Of a DNA stretch of 64,000 nucleotides, positions 2,169 to 57,596 are shown piece after piece; within the stretch, counting starts at the first letter, position 1; each line of letters starts with the position of its first letter. The notes beneath the pieces were generated by a model. It saw only the letters and a program-made list of their open reading frames with translations, did not search any database and had not been told where the DNA came from. Source of the DNA: Thermoleophilaceae bacterium (lineage in GTDB: Bacteria > Actinomycetota > Thermoleophilia > Solirubrobacterales > Thermoleophilaceae). A program made the translations under genes and the position numbers. Where the stretch lies: positions 1 to 64,000 of the forward strand of contig DASUWY010000061.1 in the NCBI GenBank assembly GCA_036378175.1, read 5' to 3'.

Positions 2169-3394
2169 GACCGGTGTGCTTCCAGTGCGCGGTCTATCAG
2201 GTCGGAAGCTGCGCCCAGATACGACTCCGGCGCGAGCACGGCGTCGTCTAGCTCCGGGAGGGCGTCACGTAGCTCCACGCCGTCGTCCATCACCTTCCGG
2301 GCGGCGTGCTCGACGAGCTCCTGCGCCTTCGCGCGGCCGAGCGACGGCGTGAGAGCTGTGACCACGCCCTCGGTCATCAGCAGACCGCCGGTGACGTCCA
2401 GGTTCGCGCGCATGCGCTCGGTGTCCACCTCGAGTCCTTCGAGCAGCTCGCGCAGCGTCGCGGCGGCGGAGCCGGTCAGGCGCAGCAGGTCGGACAGCGT
2501 CTCCGATTCGGCCTGCCATGCGCCGGCCGCGCGTTCGTGCTCCTGCGCCATCGACGCCAGCATGGTCGCCACCAGGCCCGGCACTCGAGCCGCGCACGCG
2601 CGCACGGCAACAGCGCCAACGGGGTTGCGCTTGTGCGGCAGCGTGGACGAGCCGCCGCGACCGGCGGCCCCAGCCTCGGCCACCTCCCCCACCTCGGTCT
2701 GCGCGAGCAGCTCGATGTCCAGCGCGATCTTGCCCATCACGCCCGCGGCCGCGCCGAGCGCGCACGCCAGCCGCGCCGGCTGGGTGCGGATGGTGTGCCA
2801 CGGAAGCGTCGGCTCGGCCAGCTCGAGGGCGCGTGCCACCTCGGCCACCGCTCTCAGGCCGTCGTCACCAAGCGCCGCCAGCGTTCCCACCGCGCCGCCG
2901 AGCTGCACAGTCAGGCCCGCCCGTACACCGGCAAGCGCTCCCCGCACCTCGTCGAGGCCGCTGAGCCAGCCCGCCGCCCTGAGCCCGAACGTCACCGGCG
3001 CGGCCTGCTGCAGGAGGGTGCGGCCGGCCATTGGCGCGTGGCGATAGCGCTCCGCCAGGACCGCGCAACCGTCGGCGGCGCCGCCCAGATCCTCGAGTAG
3101 CGGTCCAAGCGCGCGCTTGGACACGAGCATCGCCGCACTGTCCACCACGTCCTGGCTCGTGGCGCCGCGGTGCACGTGGGCGGCGGCGTCCTCCGGCAGC
3201 CTTGCCCGCAGCTGCTTCAGCAGACCCGGCACCGGGGTGCCGTAATCGGCTGTGGAGATGCCGAGGTCCTCGAGGTCGAAGCGGTCCGCCACGCACGCGG
3301 CGGCGATCGCATCTGCCGCGCCAGAAGGCGCCACGGCGCGCGCCAGCGCCGCCTCGAAGTCGAGCATCGCCTGCAGCCAGGCGCGGTCGTCCAC
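2165..3394 (-). CDS. pcaB: 3-carboxy-cis,cis-muconate cycloisomerase (PcaB)
   Basis: Member of the fumarase/aspartase superfamily converting 3-carboxymuconate to 4-carboxymuconolactone. The superfamily signature GGSSTLPHKRNPVG and the HRGATSQDVVDSA motif are clear. The first conventional start is GTG 3394 (409 aa), but it falls inside conserved sequence: the upstream codons of the same frame read LFSRGRVAAEV, as in homologues. A CTG at 3448 with AAGGGG nine bases before it would give 427 aa and a 20-base overlap with pcaG. The true start is therefore probably CTG 3448 rather than the coordinate given. Confidence 0.92.
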   Translation of the reverse strand: MDDRAWLQAMLDFEAALARAVAPSGAADAIAAACVADRFDLEDLGISTADYGTPVPGLLKQLRARLPEDAAAHVHRGATSQDVVDSAAMLVSKRALGPLLEDLGGAADGCAVLAERYRHAPMAGRTLLQQAAPVTFGLRAAGWLSGLDEVRGALAGVRAGLTVQLGGAVGTLAALGDDGLRAVAEVARALELAEPTLPWHTIRTQPARLACALGAAAGVMGKIALDIELLAQTEVGEVAEAGAAGRGGSSTLPHKRNPVGAVAVRACAARVPGLVATMLASMAQEHERAAGAWQAESETLSDLLRLTGSAAATLRELLEGLEVDTERMRANLDVTGGLLMTEGVVTALTPSLGRAKAQELVEHAARKVMDDGVELRDALPELDDAVLAPESYLGAASDLIDRALEAHRS

Positions 3395-3428
3395 TTCCGC
3401 GGCTACACGGCCGCGCGAGAAGAGACCG

Positions 3429-43587: not shown

Positions 43588-44925
43588 CTACGCCCCGCCC
43601 AGGAAGCGCATGAACACATTGGGCACCGCTCCGCCGCCACCCCCGGCGGCACCGGCGCCCGCGCTGGTGGTGAACGCGACGTAGTTGCCGTGCGCGCTCG
43701 TGGCCGGGTCCACGCTCGGCGTGGAGAAGGCGTCGCTCGACGGCGGCCGCGACTCGCGGGACACGTTGCCGTAGCCCCGGCTCAGGGAGAAGTTCCACAG
43801 GAACACGTCGCGCACGTGGCCGTTCGGATCGGTGCCGACGAAGCTGCCCTTGGGCCGCAGGTTGGTTGCCGCCGAGTCGAACAGGATGAACTGCCCGGCG
43901 CTCGAGATCACCGGGTCGTTGCTCGGCCCGTTGCCCTGCGCGTGCGCGCCGTAGGAGAAGCTGGCCATCTCCATGCGGTCGTGCGTGGGAGCGTGGCGGC
44001 TCATGGTGCGGCGGAAGACGTCGCTTGTGGCGCCGTTGCGGTCGGCTGAAACGCCCCTGCAGAGCCCCCGGCAGAGGTTCGTGGCGGCCGACTCGAACGC
44101 GATGTACTCGCCGTTGGCGTTCACCGACGGGTGCGCGCTCGGGCCGTTGCCCGCGCCGCCCAGCCCGGCGCTCACGAGCCGCTCGGGGCCGTGCTTGCGC
44201 AGGCCGTGCCTACCCCGCCCGAAGCGCTGGTACCAGATCTGGCCGGCCCTGACGTAGGTCACGCCGCGGCCGTCGGTCTCCTGGTCCGGCTGGTCACCCT
44301 GCGCGATGGCGAGCGGCTTGCCGCTGTCCACCTTTGCCACGAACACGGTGCCGCCCGCGGCAAAGGTCACGAAGCGGCAGGCGCCGTCGATCGTCGGGTG
44401 CACCGCATCGGTGGCGCCGGGCGCGACCACGTGAGTGGTGCCGTGCGCGAGGTTGCGCACGTAGACGTCGGAGTCCGGGCTCGCGTCGCGCGGATCGAGG
44501 TTCGTCGCGTTCGACTGGAAGGCCACGCAGTGCGGGCTGCGGCCGTTGGTGCCGTCCACGGACGGGCTCGAGCTGCTGCCGTTCGCCTGCGCCCCGCCGC
44601 TCGCCACGCTCACGCGCTCGATCGAGCCACCCATCCCGTTGCGGTGGAGCACGAAGACGTCGGTCACGCCGTTGCTGTCCCCGCCCACCAGGTTCGACGC
44701 CGCGCTCGTGAAGGCGTAGAGGGACGCCGTGCGTCCATCCTGGCTGAACGCGCCACCGGTGCTGGGACCGTTCGCGTTGCGGCTGATCAGCGCGGTGACG
44801 CGGGTGCCGTGCACGCCCGCGCGCGCGTCGGCGGCGAGGCATGTGATCGCAAGCAGAGTGGTGAGCCCAAGCAGGCTGAATGCACGCAGGTTGCACGCAG
44901 CGCCAGCAGCGGTACGTTTCTGCAC
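43588..44925 (-). CDS. Secreted beta-propeller (TolB/PD40-like) protein
   Basis: Protein of 445 aa with a signal peptide (FSLLGLTTLLAITCLAADARA) and no other membrane segment. At least four repeats share the core NGPS..PSV...G.YIAFESAATNL (clear copies around 90-130, 255-290 and 320-350), the pattern of TolB/WD40-like propeller blades. A Gly/Ala-rich stretch near residue 425 precedes the end. Start GTG 44925. The leader contains a c-di-AMP riboswitch, so its expression should drop or rise with cell-wall/osmotic signalling. Function unknown; carbohydrate or protein binding at the surface is possible. Confidence 0.8.
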   Translation of the reverse strand: MQKRTAAGAACNLRAFSLLGLTTLLAITCLAADARAGVHGTRVTALISRNANGPSTGGAFSQDGRTASLYAFTSAASNLVGGDSNGVTDVFVLHRNGMGGSIERVSVASGGAQANGSSSSPSVDGTNGRSPHCVAFQSNATNLDPRDASPDSDVYVRNLAHGTTHVVAPGATDAVHPTIDGACRFVTFAAGGTVFVAKVDSGKPLAIAQGDQPDQETDGRGVTYVRAGQIWYQRFGRGRHGLRKHGPERLVSAGLGGAGNGPSAHPSVNANGEYIAFESAATNLCRGLCRGVSADRNGATSDVFRRTMSRHAPTHDRMEMASFSYGAHAQGNGPSNDPVISSAGQFILFDSAATNLRPKGSFVGTDPNGHVRDVFLWNFSLSRGYGNVSRESRPPSSDAFSTPSVDPATSAHGNYVAFTTSAGAGAAGGGGGAVPNVFMRFLGGA

Positions 44926-44939
44926 CGGTTCGCCCCTTC

Positions 44940-45095
44940 TTTCTGACGCCTACGGGGTGAGCTGACGGGCTCGCGCGAGAAAGAACGCGCTACGCCGCGC
45001 TATGGCGTGCGATTCGCCCCAGGGACCAGGAACGACTCCGGCCCCTAAATTGGTTCCCCCGCTCCCCGCCACCTGAACGGCAGGGACTCGGCTGG
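44940..45095 (-). promoter_or_regulatory. Cyclic di-AMP riboswitch (ydaO/yuaA type)
   Basis: Reading the minus strand, the leader holds the conserved pieces of this class in order: GGGGGAACCAATTT (45060-45047), GGGGCGAATC (45020-45011), and CCCGTCAGCTCACCCC then GTAGGCGTC (44969-44945), separated by pairing segments. In actinobacteria this riboswitch typically precedes genes for secreted cell-wall hydrolases; here it precedes a secreted beta-propeller. Boundaries are approximate. Confidence 0.85.
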
Positions 45096-45107
45096 TTGTG
45101 GCACCGG

Positions 45108-45136
45108 AATAAAGCACATCCAGCGGTCGGATGTGC
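45108..45136 (-). terminator. Rho-independent terminator of the 155-aa gene
   Basis: On the minus strand GCACATCC (45136-45129) pairs with GGATGTGC (45121-45114), 7-base loop, followed directly by TTTATT. It lies just downstream of the 155-aa hypothetical gene and upstream of the riboswitch, so it also insulates the riboswitch from readthrough. Confidence 0.75.
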
Positions 45137-46905: not shown

Positions 46906-47550
46906 CTAGTGCCCCGTTGAGGAGAAGTGCATGTAGTCCTTGGTGTTCCCGGCCCAGGATCCGCCCCAGCCCCAGCCGATTGAGCGGAACGCCCTGATCA
47001 CCCTGGCGGTGACCATCCCCGGCCGGTGCTTCGAGCGGTTGAAGTAGGGCCTCGTGCCGGGATCGCGCGACTGGCCGCAGCCCACGTACGGGTTCTCCCG
47101 CGGGTTGATGTCCACCGCCAGGCCGTACGCGTGCATCGACCACGAGCCGGTGCCGTTCCCTCCCACGCACGGTGACGGCACCGCCTGGCGGCAGTCAAAG
47201 GAGCCGGTCACGTCGTTGTCTTTCGGGATCGTGCTGTTCGGCCCGTACATCTGGACGAGCCGCATGTGCCGGATCGGGAAGTGCAGCAGGTAGAGCTTGT
47301 GGAACACCTTCGCGAGCCCTGGCGCGGCGCTCGCGTTCACCACGAGCTGGCCGGTGTGGGTGTGGTGGTCGAAGCCGCGCGTTGTGACGGTGAGCACGCG
47401 TAGCTGAGAGAGCCTCACGGGACAGTTGGAGTGGTAGAAGCCGTGCTTCTTCATCTCCGTCCGCACCGATGGCGGCACGGGCTTGATCGACGAGTGGAAG
47501 GCGGTGGACGGCACCGCCAGGGCGAGCGCAAGCGCAAGGACGCGAAGCAC
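46906..47550 (-). CDS. Secreted M15-type (D-Ala-D-Ala carboxypeptidase/VanY-like) peptidase
   Basis: Protein of 214 aa: short signal peptide (MLRVLALALALAVPSTAF) and an M15_4-type zinc peptidase domain with metal/catalytic motifs SMHAYGLAVDINP (His and Asp ligands) and DYMHFS (third His). Extra Cys pair FDCRQAVPSPC may form a disulfide. It would trim peptidoglycan cross-links. GTG 47550 gives the signal peptide start; the longer frame upstream is not conserved. Confidence 0.82.
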   Translation of the reverse strand: MLRVLALALALAVPSTAFHSSIKPVPPSVRTEMKKHGFYHSNCPVRLSQLRVLTVTTRGFDHHTHTGQLVVNASAAPGLAKVFHKLYLLHFPIRHMRLVQMYGPNSTIPKDNDVTGSFDCRQAVPSPCVGGNGTGSWSMHAYGLAVDINPRENPYVGCGQSRDPGTRPYFNRSKHRPGMVTARVIRAFRSIGWGWGGSWAGNTKDYMHFSSTGH

Positions 47551-47688
47551 GGCATCACATTGTTGCGCGCTGGCGGCGGACCACGGACTCAACCACCAGG
47601 CTCGTGCGCCGCACCGCCTCGCCGTACGCGCGCCGCAGCGGCTTCAGCGGCAGCGGATTGCGCAGCGCGCCATGGCGGAGGAGCTAGC

Positions 47689-49311: not shown

Positions 49312-50967
49312 CTAGCCCAGGAGCGCGAAGCTCCAGGTCGGGCCCGCGCCCACGCCGATCCCGCTGCGCCCGTTCGGCAGAAGCGTCGAGAAAGGCGTAT
49401 GACGTTCGTTTCGCGTGCCGTCGCCGAGCTGCCCGGCCACGTTCCAGCCCCACGCCCAAATCGTCCGCTGGCCCTCGAGCGCGAGGCTGTGGGCGTCGCC
49501 CACCGCAAGAGCCCGGATGGACTTTCCGTGAAGGGCGGAGATCTTGACGGGCGTCAGGCGATTTGCCGTGCCGCCGTCGCCGACCTGGCCGTCGCCACCG
49601 GCTCCCCACGCCCACACGTCACCGGCAATGTCCCGCGCGAGCACGTGCCGGCTTGCGCTGATCTGCTGGATGTAGGTGAGGCCCGGCACCTGCACCGGCG
49701 TGAGCTTGTCGTTCACGGGCCCGAAACCGCCAGTCCCGCCGACACCGAGATTGCCTCCGTCTCCCAGGCCCCAGGCAAATACGTCGCCGGTGACCCTCAC
49801 GGCGAAGGACGAGGCCGCCGCCGCAGCGATCGATTGCACCGCGGTGAGGTTTGGCACGAGAGCCGGAGCCGAGCGGAATGTCCTCGACCCGTCCCCCAGC
49901 TGACCGCGCGAGTTGTCCCCCCACGACCACACACGGCCGTCCCGCGTGAGCACCAGGTTGAAGTCGTCTCCCGCGGCGGCCGCAACCGCATCACTGAGGC
50001 CGGCGACCTTGACCGGCTGCATGTCGAAGCCGCCCCCGGAAACGTCGCGCCCCCATTTCCACACGCTCCCGTCCGAACGCACGGCGAGCGCATGCGAGCC
50101 ACGCGCCGCTATGTCCACAATCCCCGTGAGGTTCGGTACGCGGCCAGGGCTCAATCTCGGCATGGTGGAGCCGTCGTCACCCCACGACCAGACCGTGCCG
50201 TCGGCGCTGAGGGCCACCGTCATGGCGGCGGCGCCCACGATCTTCCTGGCATCCAGCCCGGGCACCCAAACCGCCGTGTCACGCTCGGTCGTCGACCCGT
50301 CGCCAAGGGTGCCGCCGATGTTCTGGCCCCAGCCGAGGATGCTGGGCGTACCGGGAGGAGCAGGCGGCGGCGGCTCCAGGTGGCCCGGGTAGGCCCGGAG
50401 CGGCGGCTGGCGCTCCAGCAGAAGCTTGTCCGGCAGCTTGCCGTACGAGGGGTCGAGGTTGAGGCACTGCGCGCAGACGTCGCCGATCGGGCCGCCTCCC
50501 CACTTGGTCGGGTCGTCGCAGAGGATCAGACCGCAAATGCGGTCCTGCAACCCGTGCTCGCCGAGCTCCCTTTCCTCGAGCAGCTGCGGCCCGAAGCGGT
50601 CGAGCAGGCGGAGCGTCTCGAGCAGGGCGGGGTGCTTCGGCAAGCCGATGGCGCCGTAGGTGCCGGGGTGGTCTATCCACGCCGCCACCTCCGCGCCGTC
50701 CACGTCCACGATCGAGCTCTCGATCAGCGTGAACGTGCGAGACTCGACGTCCAGCTCGAAGATCGCGAGGGTCCACGGGTCCACATGCTCGACCTGCTTC
50801 TCGTCGAACGTGAGCACAAGACGTTGCGGCACGAACGACTCGGTCCGCGCGCCCGGCCGGCTCACCTTCACATAGCGGCCGATACTCCCGAAGGTCGCAT
50901 CCGGCAACGGATCCTCGATCTCGGTGACCCGGATCTTGAGGGGCTTGGGGCGCTTGACCTCGGCCAT
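49312..50967 (-). CDS. RCC1-repeat beta-propeller protein
   Basis: Protein of 551 aa. The C-terminal 330 residues hold six to seven RCC1-type repeats (VWSWGDDG, VWKWGRDVSG, VWSWGDNSRGQLGDGSR, VFAWGLGDGGNLGVGG, VWAWGAGGDGQVGDGG, IWAWGWNVAGQLGDGT). The first 200 residues are a mixed domain with a Cys pair (ICGLILCDD, DVCAQCLNLD). A Pro-rich linker joins the two. No signal peptide. RCC1 repeats mediate binding; the partner is unknown. Confidence 0.82.
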   Translation of the reverse strand: MAEVKRPKPLKIRVTEIEDPLPDATFGSIGRYVKVSRPGARTESFVPQRLVLTFDEKQVEHVDPWTLAIFELDVESRTFTLIESSIVDVDGAEVAAWIDHPGTYGAIGLPKHPALLETLRLLDRFGPQLLEERELGEHGLQDRICGLILCDDPTKWGGGPIGDVCAQCLNLDPSYGKLPDKLLLERQPPLRAYPGHLEPPPPAPPGTPSILGWGQNIGGTLGDGSTTERDTAVWVPGLDARKIVGAAAMTVALSADGTVWSWGDDGSTMPRLSPGRVPNLTGIVDIAARGSHALAVRSDGSVWKWGRDVSGGGFDMQPVKVAGLSDAVAAAAGDDFNLVLTRDGRVWSWGDNSRGQLGDGSRTFRSAPALVPNLTAVQSIAAAAASSFAVRVTGDVFAWGLGDGGNLGVGGTGGFGPVNDKLTPVQVPGLTYIQQISASRHVLARDIAGDVWAWGAGGDGQVGDGGTANRLTPVKISALHGKSIRALAVGDAHSLALEGQRTIWAWGWNVAGQLGDGTRNERHTPFSTLLPNGRSGIGVGAGPTWSFALLG

Positions 50968-56932: not shown

Positions 56933-57231
56933 CTTTCTCGAGCTCAAATCAACCCCTCGCTATGAGCCATCCATGGCACTGCCGGATGCGCGGACGTTTT
57001 CGGGTCATCTCAGCGGCAGCGGATTCGGCAACCGAATTCGCGCACATCACGCGCCCCCATCCGCTCTCAACTCCGCCTATCGGCCGCGGCAGGTCGAGGC
57101 GGTGTAGCGGAACGGGTCCACCGCCGTGTTGATCGCCATCAATCCCAGGATCCGTCCACGCAAGGCGTTAGAGCTAGGTCCGATGCGGTGCGATGTCGCC
57201 ATCAACAGGATCGATTGGCTCTGAAAGCCAG
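56933..57231. other. Low-GC gap between EcsC-like gene and ssrA
   Basis: About 300 bases, 57% GC in the first 60 counted. It contains the dyad ATTCGG-CAA-CCGAAT near 57025 and a 41-codon minus-strand frame (57077-57202, MATSHRIGPSSNALRGRILG) that I cannot support as a gene. Just past the tmRNA 3' end, TGGCT/AGCCA with a 5-base loop (minus strand) may be a weak ssrA terminator. No integrase remnant is recognisable. Confidence 0.5.
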
Positions 57232-57244
57232 TGGAGACGGTGGG
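57230..57244 (-). repeat. ssrA 3'-end copy of the 15-bp direct repeat
   Basis: AGTGGAGACGGTGGG, covering the 3' acceptor strand and part of the T-stem of tmRNA; partner of 56126-56140. tmRNA 3' ends are well known integration targets of tyrosine recombinases. Confidence 0.6.
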
Positions 57245-57596
57245 AATCGAACCCACGTCCGCGGGCGCGTGATGGGCAGCTTCTACGAGCGTAGCCGGCG
57301 CTCTGTGTCTCGCCTCCCGATCGCCGCGCCGGCGGGGTTACGGGAGGCCAGCCCTCTTAGTGTCCCCGCGCCGCCGAGGGCACTCGGCGCGGGCTTGGCC
57401 TGCTAGCTGATGCCGGTGTTCTCGCCCGCAGGCCGAAGCGAGACCGACACCTCACTTACCTAAGTTTGGTTAGGCAGCGAGGGCGAACGTGTGGTTGTCC
57501 GCACTTATTGGTTTCCCGGTTGTTTAGCGAGGCCTACCGGGGACCTCGACTCGCAACTACCCACACGGAACGTCCACGTCGAAGCCTGTCGTCCCC
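57232..57596 (-). ncRNA. ssrA: Transfer-messenger RNA (tmRNA)
   Basis: One-piece tmRNA of about 365 nt that rescues stalled ribosomes with SmpB. The 5' end GGGGACG pairs with CGTCTCC at the 3' end (one G-U), followed by discriminator A; CCA is not encoded. The T-arm is GTGGG-TTCGATT-CCCAC. The tag frame starts at the resume codon GCG (57502-57500) and reads ADNHTFALAA before TAA, ending in the ALAA degradation signal. Pseudoknot-forming GC-rich repeats fill the middle. Its promoter must overlap the first codons of the divergent GNAT gene, only 32 bases away. Confidence 0.96.

Follow-up and report, generated by a model that had tools for sequence, protein, structure and literature searches.

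A c-di-AMP riboswitch with its pseudoknot strand on the Shine-Dalgarno region of a predicted secreted beta-propeller gene in a Thermoleophilaceae bacterium

Main finding

The leader of a gene encoding a 445-aa protein, located in the window (the whole 64,000-nucleotide stretch of Thermoleophilaceae DNA that was analysed), contains a complete aptamer of the ydaO/yuaA class, and probably constitutes a c-di-AMP riboswitch working as an OFF switch by direct repression of translation. In the mechanism proposed here the folded, c-di-AMP-bound aptamer would keep a pseudoknot between its loop UUCUUUCU and the tail AGAAAGAA; since this tail makes up the 5' half of the Shine-Dalgarno region, with the start codon 11 nt further on, the landing of the ribosome would be blocked. 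At low c-di-AMP the tail would be released and the protein, a predicted beta-propeller, would be made and exported, as would a group of wall-remodelling enzymes governed by the same type of switch.

The aptamer and its conservation, the pseudoknot pairing in the relatives, the Shine-Dalgarno overlap and the company of wall enzymes emerge directly from the sequence comparisons, whereas we infer that the aptamer binds its ligand and that the response goes in the OFF direction. The propeller is presumably active within the cell envelope or at its surface, and its regulon membership suggests a part in the cell-wall or osmotic response. Translational OFF control has already been proposed for the ydaO class, so that the mechanism itself is not new; the propeller is an atypical new target within a known type of regulon, and what the present analysis adds is comparative support for a pseudoknot placed on the ribosome binding site (RBS) and a large regulon.

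The aptamer and its locus

The earlier note had recognized a ydaO/yuaA riboswitch at 44940-45095 and had called for a search with the RF00379 covariance model. When the whole window was run through cmscan against 4227 Rfam families, only two matches exceeded their gathering thresholds, namely a tmRNA and RF00379; the latter encloses the span that had been indicated, covers model positions 1-134 of 134 and scores far above the gathering value of 38 (E 5.7e-15), in full support of the assignment. The features of the locus are collected in Table 1.

Table 1. Features of the riboswitch-propeller locus (window coordinates)
Feature	Position	Strand	Evidence
Full-length RF00379 aptamer (c-di-AMP riboswitch, ydaO/yuaA class)	44932..45103	(-)	cmscan, 72.8 bits
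Pseudoknot 5' strand UUCUUUCU, in the loop of the hairpin that follows GUAG	44978..44985	(-)	sequence; loop-tail pairing over 106 aptamers
Pseudoknot 3' strand AGAAAGAA, which overlaps with the Shine-Dalgarno	44937..44944	(-)	sequence; comparison of 106 aptamers
Shine-Dalgarno AGAAGGGG, start codon 7 nt downstream	44933..44940	(-)	strongest pairing to the 3' end of 16S rRNA
ORF of the predicted 445-aa secreted beta-propeller, GTG start, stop included	43588..44925	(-)	ORF list; ortholog 84% identical; dN/dS ~0.19; AlphaFold2 pLDDT 86.4
N-terminal hydrophobic segment, residues 1-36, signal-peptide-like	44818..44925	(-)	sequence; helix 9-36 at low pLDDT in the model
TGTGCTTTATT box just 5' of the aptamer	45108..45118	(-)	also upstream of the aptamers of the G001 ortholog and of the own paralog L014

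The last aptamer base lies 6 nt from the GTG of the ORF, and upstream, the nearest neighbour encoded on this strand reaches to 45161, so that the aptamer occupies most of the intergenic gap. The TGTGCTTTATT box might, speculatively, represent a promoter -10 region.

Elsewhere in the window the tmRNA gene (RF00023, 159.3 bits) occupies 57229-57596 (-), a gene of the Peptidase_M15_4 (D-Ala-D-Ala carboxypeptidase) type without a riboswitch is found about 2 kb upstream of the aptamer at 46906-47592 (-), and a 551-aa ORF at 49312-50967 (-) displays what by eye look like RCC1-like repeats, possibly representing a second propeller protein.

The pseudoknot and the Shine-Dalgarno region

The loop and the tail are complementary over 8 bp, and the tail is followed in the 3' direction by GGGG, seven bases and the GTG. 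The 3' end of 16S rRNA, as read in six relatives, contains CACCTCCTTTCT; with the Shine-Dalgarno taken as AGAAGGGG, the 8-bp helix would occupy its first four bases, the GGGG core falling just outside the helix. Corresponding complementary strands are found in the sequence of the solved ydaO aptamer, for which the RNA-Puzzles paper, in the part drawn upon here, describes a stable pseudoknot; from our reading of the printed sequence the two helices appear to be one and the same.

To this aptamer and the 10 others of its own genome 95 mostly higher-scoring matches from relatives were added, yielding a set of 106, in 100 of which loop and tail can form an uninterrupted helix of 6 or more pairs. 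MAFFT left the tails of these aptamers unaligned and covariation of the pseudoknot was therefore evaluated by permutation instead of by column counts. Pairing with the aptamers' own tails exceeded that with permuted tails in 99 non-redundant aptamers (6.97 vs 6.33, z 8.4), in the 35 having non-consensus loops (6.24 vs 5.31, z 6.5) and in 62 aptamers representing each loop only once (z 8.2), with 0/2000 permutations reaching the observed value in each case, the shared ancestry of the aptamers being still contained in these figures. Compensatory loop/tail versions include GTGTTC/GAACAC, CTTCTTC/GAAGAAG and TCGTT/AACGA.

The position of the downstream gene was analysed in 105 aptamers, one of the 106 lacking downstream sequence. 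An ORF of at least 70 aa having a hydrophobic N-terminus and starting between -4 and +22 nt from the end of the pseudoknot follows 74 of them, whereas just 4 such cases occur in 735 control windows; from the pseudoknot end to such a secreted-type start the median distance is 9 nt. Among the 31 failing this test, 22 have a well-placed ORF whose start is not strongly hydrophobic and nine have no ORF. Within the 74 that passed, the 31 without a clear secreted start having been set aside beforehand, the pseudoknot strand and the best Shine-Dalgarno overlap in 70 cases, and by at least 3 nt in 63; the Shine-Dalgarno pairing score exceeds modestly that obtained in shuffled leaders (6.1 vs 5.1). According to the part of a 2024 review (PMC10907184) considered here, ydaO is among the riboswitches in which the aptamer, once it has bound its ligand, docks the RBS, and the arrangement expected of such a riboswitch, a pseudoknot strand lying over the Shine-Dalgarno of the next gene, is that seen by sequence both in the window and at these 70 starts.

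The regulon and the propeller protein

In the host genome (95% complete, 4.29 Mb in 89 contigs) RF00379 matches above the cut-off number 11, and a diadenylate cyclase domain is encoded there (PF02457, DAC, 96.4 bits); judging from its genes, the organism appears to be capable of c-di-AMP synthesis. RF00379 was found in 41/41 genomes of the nearest-relative search, the host included, with 2 to 12 copies each, the maximum of 12 belonging not to the host but to G006 (3.0 Mb, 72% complete). A draw from the whole phylum yielded RF00379 in 39/198 genomes, with a top count of 8 outside this order.

The earlier note had described a secreted beta-propeller controlled by a class of riboswitch whose known actinobacterial targets are mostly wall hydrolases, and both statements are borne out. 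Of the 10 further genes that the host keeps behind such riboswitches, eight are of the peptidoglycan-binding or wall-hydrolase type: six carry peptidoglycan-binding, transglycosylase, M23 or DPBB lytic-transglycosylase domains above the Pfam cut-off, whereas two are so classified solely on NlpC/P60 matches that fall below the curated cut-off. The remaining two are a glycosyl-hydrolase-like protein and a 79-aa ORF without a Pfam family, directly 3' of its riboswitch (L012, G000:C88:12430-16135, 3160-3396). Leaving out 17 aptamers whose ORFs were short, shadow or doubtful, Pfam was run on 89 of the 106 targets, the 445-aa ORF included, and returned PG_binding_1 in 33, M23 in 22, transglycosylase in 9, NlpC/P60 in 7, DPBB in 6 and CAP in 2, these tallies overlapping inasmuch as one protein can match several families. 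By eye, a short ORF seems to lie between the aptamer of L014 (G000:C41:51182-58340, ~3159-3240) and the point where the glycosyl-hydrolase-like gene likely starts with its signal peptide; the start of this short ORF corresponds to the position of the GTG in the window, and translational coupling is possible.

As to the propeller, an AlphaFold2 model built with 22 aligned homologs (mean pLDDT 86.4, pTM 0.85) is entirely beta after the N-terminal hydrophobic helix, and a beta-propeller fold is confidently predicted for the protein, which is presumably secreted. Propellers likewise dominate the results of both Foldseek, headed by TolB structures (E 9.4e-12), and VIA-align, headed by the propeller of CylK (Z 32.8, rmsd 2.7, 338 aligned residues, 13% identity; 23.7 for the next non-CylK row), and the model displays seven blades with CylK topology. 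Pfam and NCBIfam matched zero families in the 445-aa protein. Since PD40, found by Pfam in 10/22 aligned homologs, does not match it, the protein is regarded as a propeller by predicted fold and not as a member of PD40. A sequence route to CylK gave nothing, insofar as a profile search of the PDB returned designed Pizza propellers and weak S9-peptidase matches, with CylK absent. The protein contains one strict DxNGxxD loop and three looser repeats, on which basis stabilization by Ca2+ is a guess.

Distribution and origin of the riboswitch-propeller pair

Both the aptamer (72.5 bits) and the ORF are preserved in G001, a genome of the same genus, whose 84%-identical ortholog has dN 0.091 and dS 0.493, the propeller gene being under purifying selection. 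The record Thermoleophilaceae bacterium GZL_HY_2_bin.6, likewise having an 84%-identical ortholog and the riboswitch, is taken to be the same genome. Twenty propeller-homolog loci were scanned with Rfam and RF00379 was detected at L203, the G001 locus, and at no other; G005 and G014 have full-length homologs (43-48% identity) and no RF00379 in the stretches scanned. Altogether 34 other propeller-homolog loci were searched with a short motif, 16 of them also with Rfam, and among the loci searched the pair is limited to one genus.

For the hairpin that follows GGGGCGAATC, window and L014 form one of two identical pairs among 210 same-genome pairs, and 4 edits separate this hairpin from that of the G001 ortholog; the leaders of the window and of L014 also share a 35-nt exact stretch and the upstream TGTGCTTTATT box. 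This likeness hints at copying or conversion. An aptamer tree did not resolve a position of the window aptamer beside L014, firmly grouping only the former with the G001 ortholog, and the glycosyl-hydrolase gene behind L014 was discarded as an old donor, being present in 1/61 genomes, its own. A TGTGCTT box, possibly a shared promoter element, precedes by 5-20 nt the aptamers of the window, L014, L079, L011, L082, L015 and L083, and TGTGCT occurs in 12/106 cases within the 50 nt before the aptamer or its first bases.

Could the riboswitch have been copied so recently as to be a merely acquired leader, physiologically meaningless for the propeller gene? Its presence at a single other locus, that of the same genus, among the 20 scanned, and a hairpin identical to that of the paralog yet 4 edits away from that of the ortholog, speak in this sense. 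On the other hand, two species with 16% of the residues differing between their proteins have both retained aptamer core, pseudoknot, Shine-Dalgarno and reading frame, and a meaningless leader is highly improbable. A broader, tentative view is that the c-di-AMP regulon of this order may grow by the copying of a compact leader module (upstream box, aptamer and a pseudoknot strand coinciding with the Shine-Dalgarno) to unrelated genes for secreted proteins; the propeller would then be one such recruit, a Ca2+-stabilized, non-enzymatic protein of the wall or surface made only at low c-di-AMP, a scenario that we consider possible but doubtful.

Alternatives to direct translational repression

The main alternative is transcription attenuation, in which case the nearness of the aptamer to the start codon would be incidental. 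A precedent is offered by the c-di-AMP riboswitch of Streptomyces coelicolor rpfA, reported in the portion of PMC10117811 considered to end transcription early; furthermore, at several RF00379 loci elsewhere in the phylum the next secreted-type ORF is 78-312 nt away. Of 24 RF00379 loci sampled in other parts of the phylum and class, only two have a secreted-type start within 22 nt, such starts being tens to hundreds of bases off in the rest, or lacking by a start test that may miss Streptomyces proteins with long charged N-termini. However, no terminator-like structure was found between the aptamer and the 445-aa ORF, where just 6 nt are available, and the aptamer abuts the ORF in the same way in most of the 105 aptamers, so that attenuation is unlikely here.

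An ON switch can also be drawn, in that CCCC (44957-44954) and GGGG (44936-44933) are complementary and both present: in the ligand-free RNA they would pair and hide the Shine-Dalgarno, while the ligand would draw CCCC into an aptamer helix and free GGGG. Yet the pseudoknot of the ligand-bound structure described for the class would still cover the adjoining AGAAAGAA, the minimum-energy fold computed without the pseudoknot seems, by eye, to use the AGAAAGAA strand and not the GGGG-CCCC pairing, and the c-di-AMP switches of Corynebacterium glutamicum nlpC and Streptomyces rpfA are presented as OFF switches in the published accounts, as far as these were drawn upon. An inverse response is thus quite improbable, and repression of translation by the pseudoknot is the reading that we retain.

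Comparison with known systems

Among the closest known systems is the nlpC riboswitch of C. glutamicum, for which the consulted part of PMC9960051 reports reporter data pointing to regulation most likely at translation and proposes a pseudoknot on the RBS. The two have in common an RF00379 aptamer, a wall-related target, the lack of a canonical terminator and translational control, the last being inferred in our case; they differ in that the target is a peptidase in C. glutamicum and a propeller here, and in that the pseudoknot-RBS pairing, put forward there as a hypothesis, receives here comparative support from 106 aptamers at the level of sequence. These 106 natural variants, some with compensatory changes, are a resource for the study of the pseudoknot-on-RBS mechanism.

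In Streptomyces, again according to the text of PMC10117811 available to us, c-di-AMP riboswitches precede wall-hydrolase genes, there being seven in S. coelicolor and six in S. venezuelae. The presence of several such switches within one genome is shared, whereas the genome studied here has eleven in 4.3 Mb, one of them before a propeller gene, and the mechanism of rpfA is reported as transcriptional. All 41 sampled genomes of the order studied here have 2 to 12 such riboswitches, to be compared with the numbers for these two species.

As regards the protein, the best fold match of the model is the C-terminal, Ca2+-bridged seven-bladed propeller of CylK (PDB 7ron), characterized by long internal loops and blade-bridging Ca2+ sites in the section of PMC8916777 used here; the resemblance is one of predicted fold, with no sequence-profile match. 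In the CylK enzyme an N-terminal Ca2+-binding beta-roll is fused to the propeller and catalysis occurs at the interface, whereas the 445-aa protein, consisting of the signal-like segment and the propeller only, has no N-terminal Ca2+-binding domain and is not classed as a CylK enzyme. Compared with the TolB and PD40 propellers, to which its Foldseek matches and part of its homologs lead, the protein itself stands apart by having no Pfam match. The present finding assigns a testable place within the c-di-AMP response of the cell envelope to a protein that is no hydrolase.
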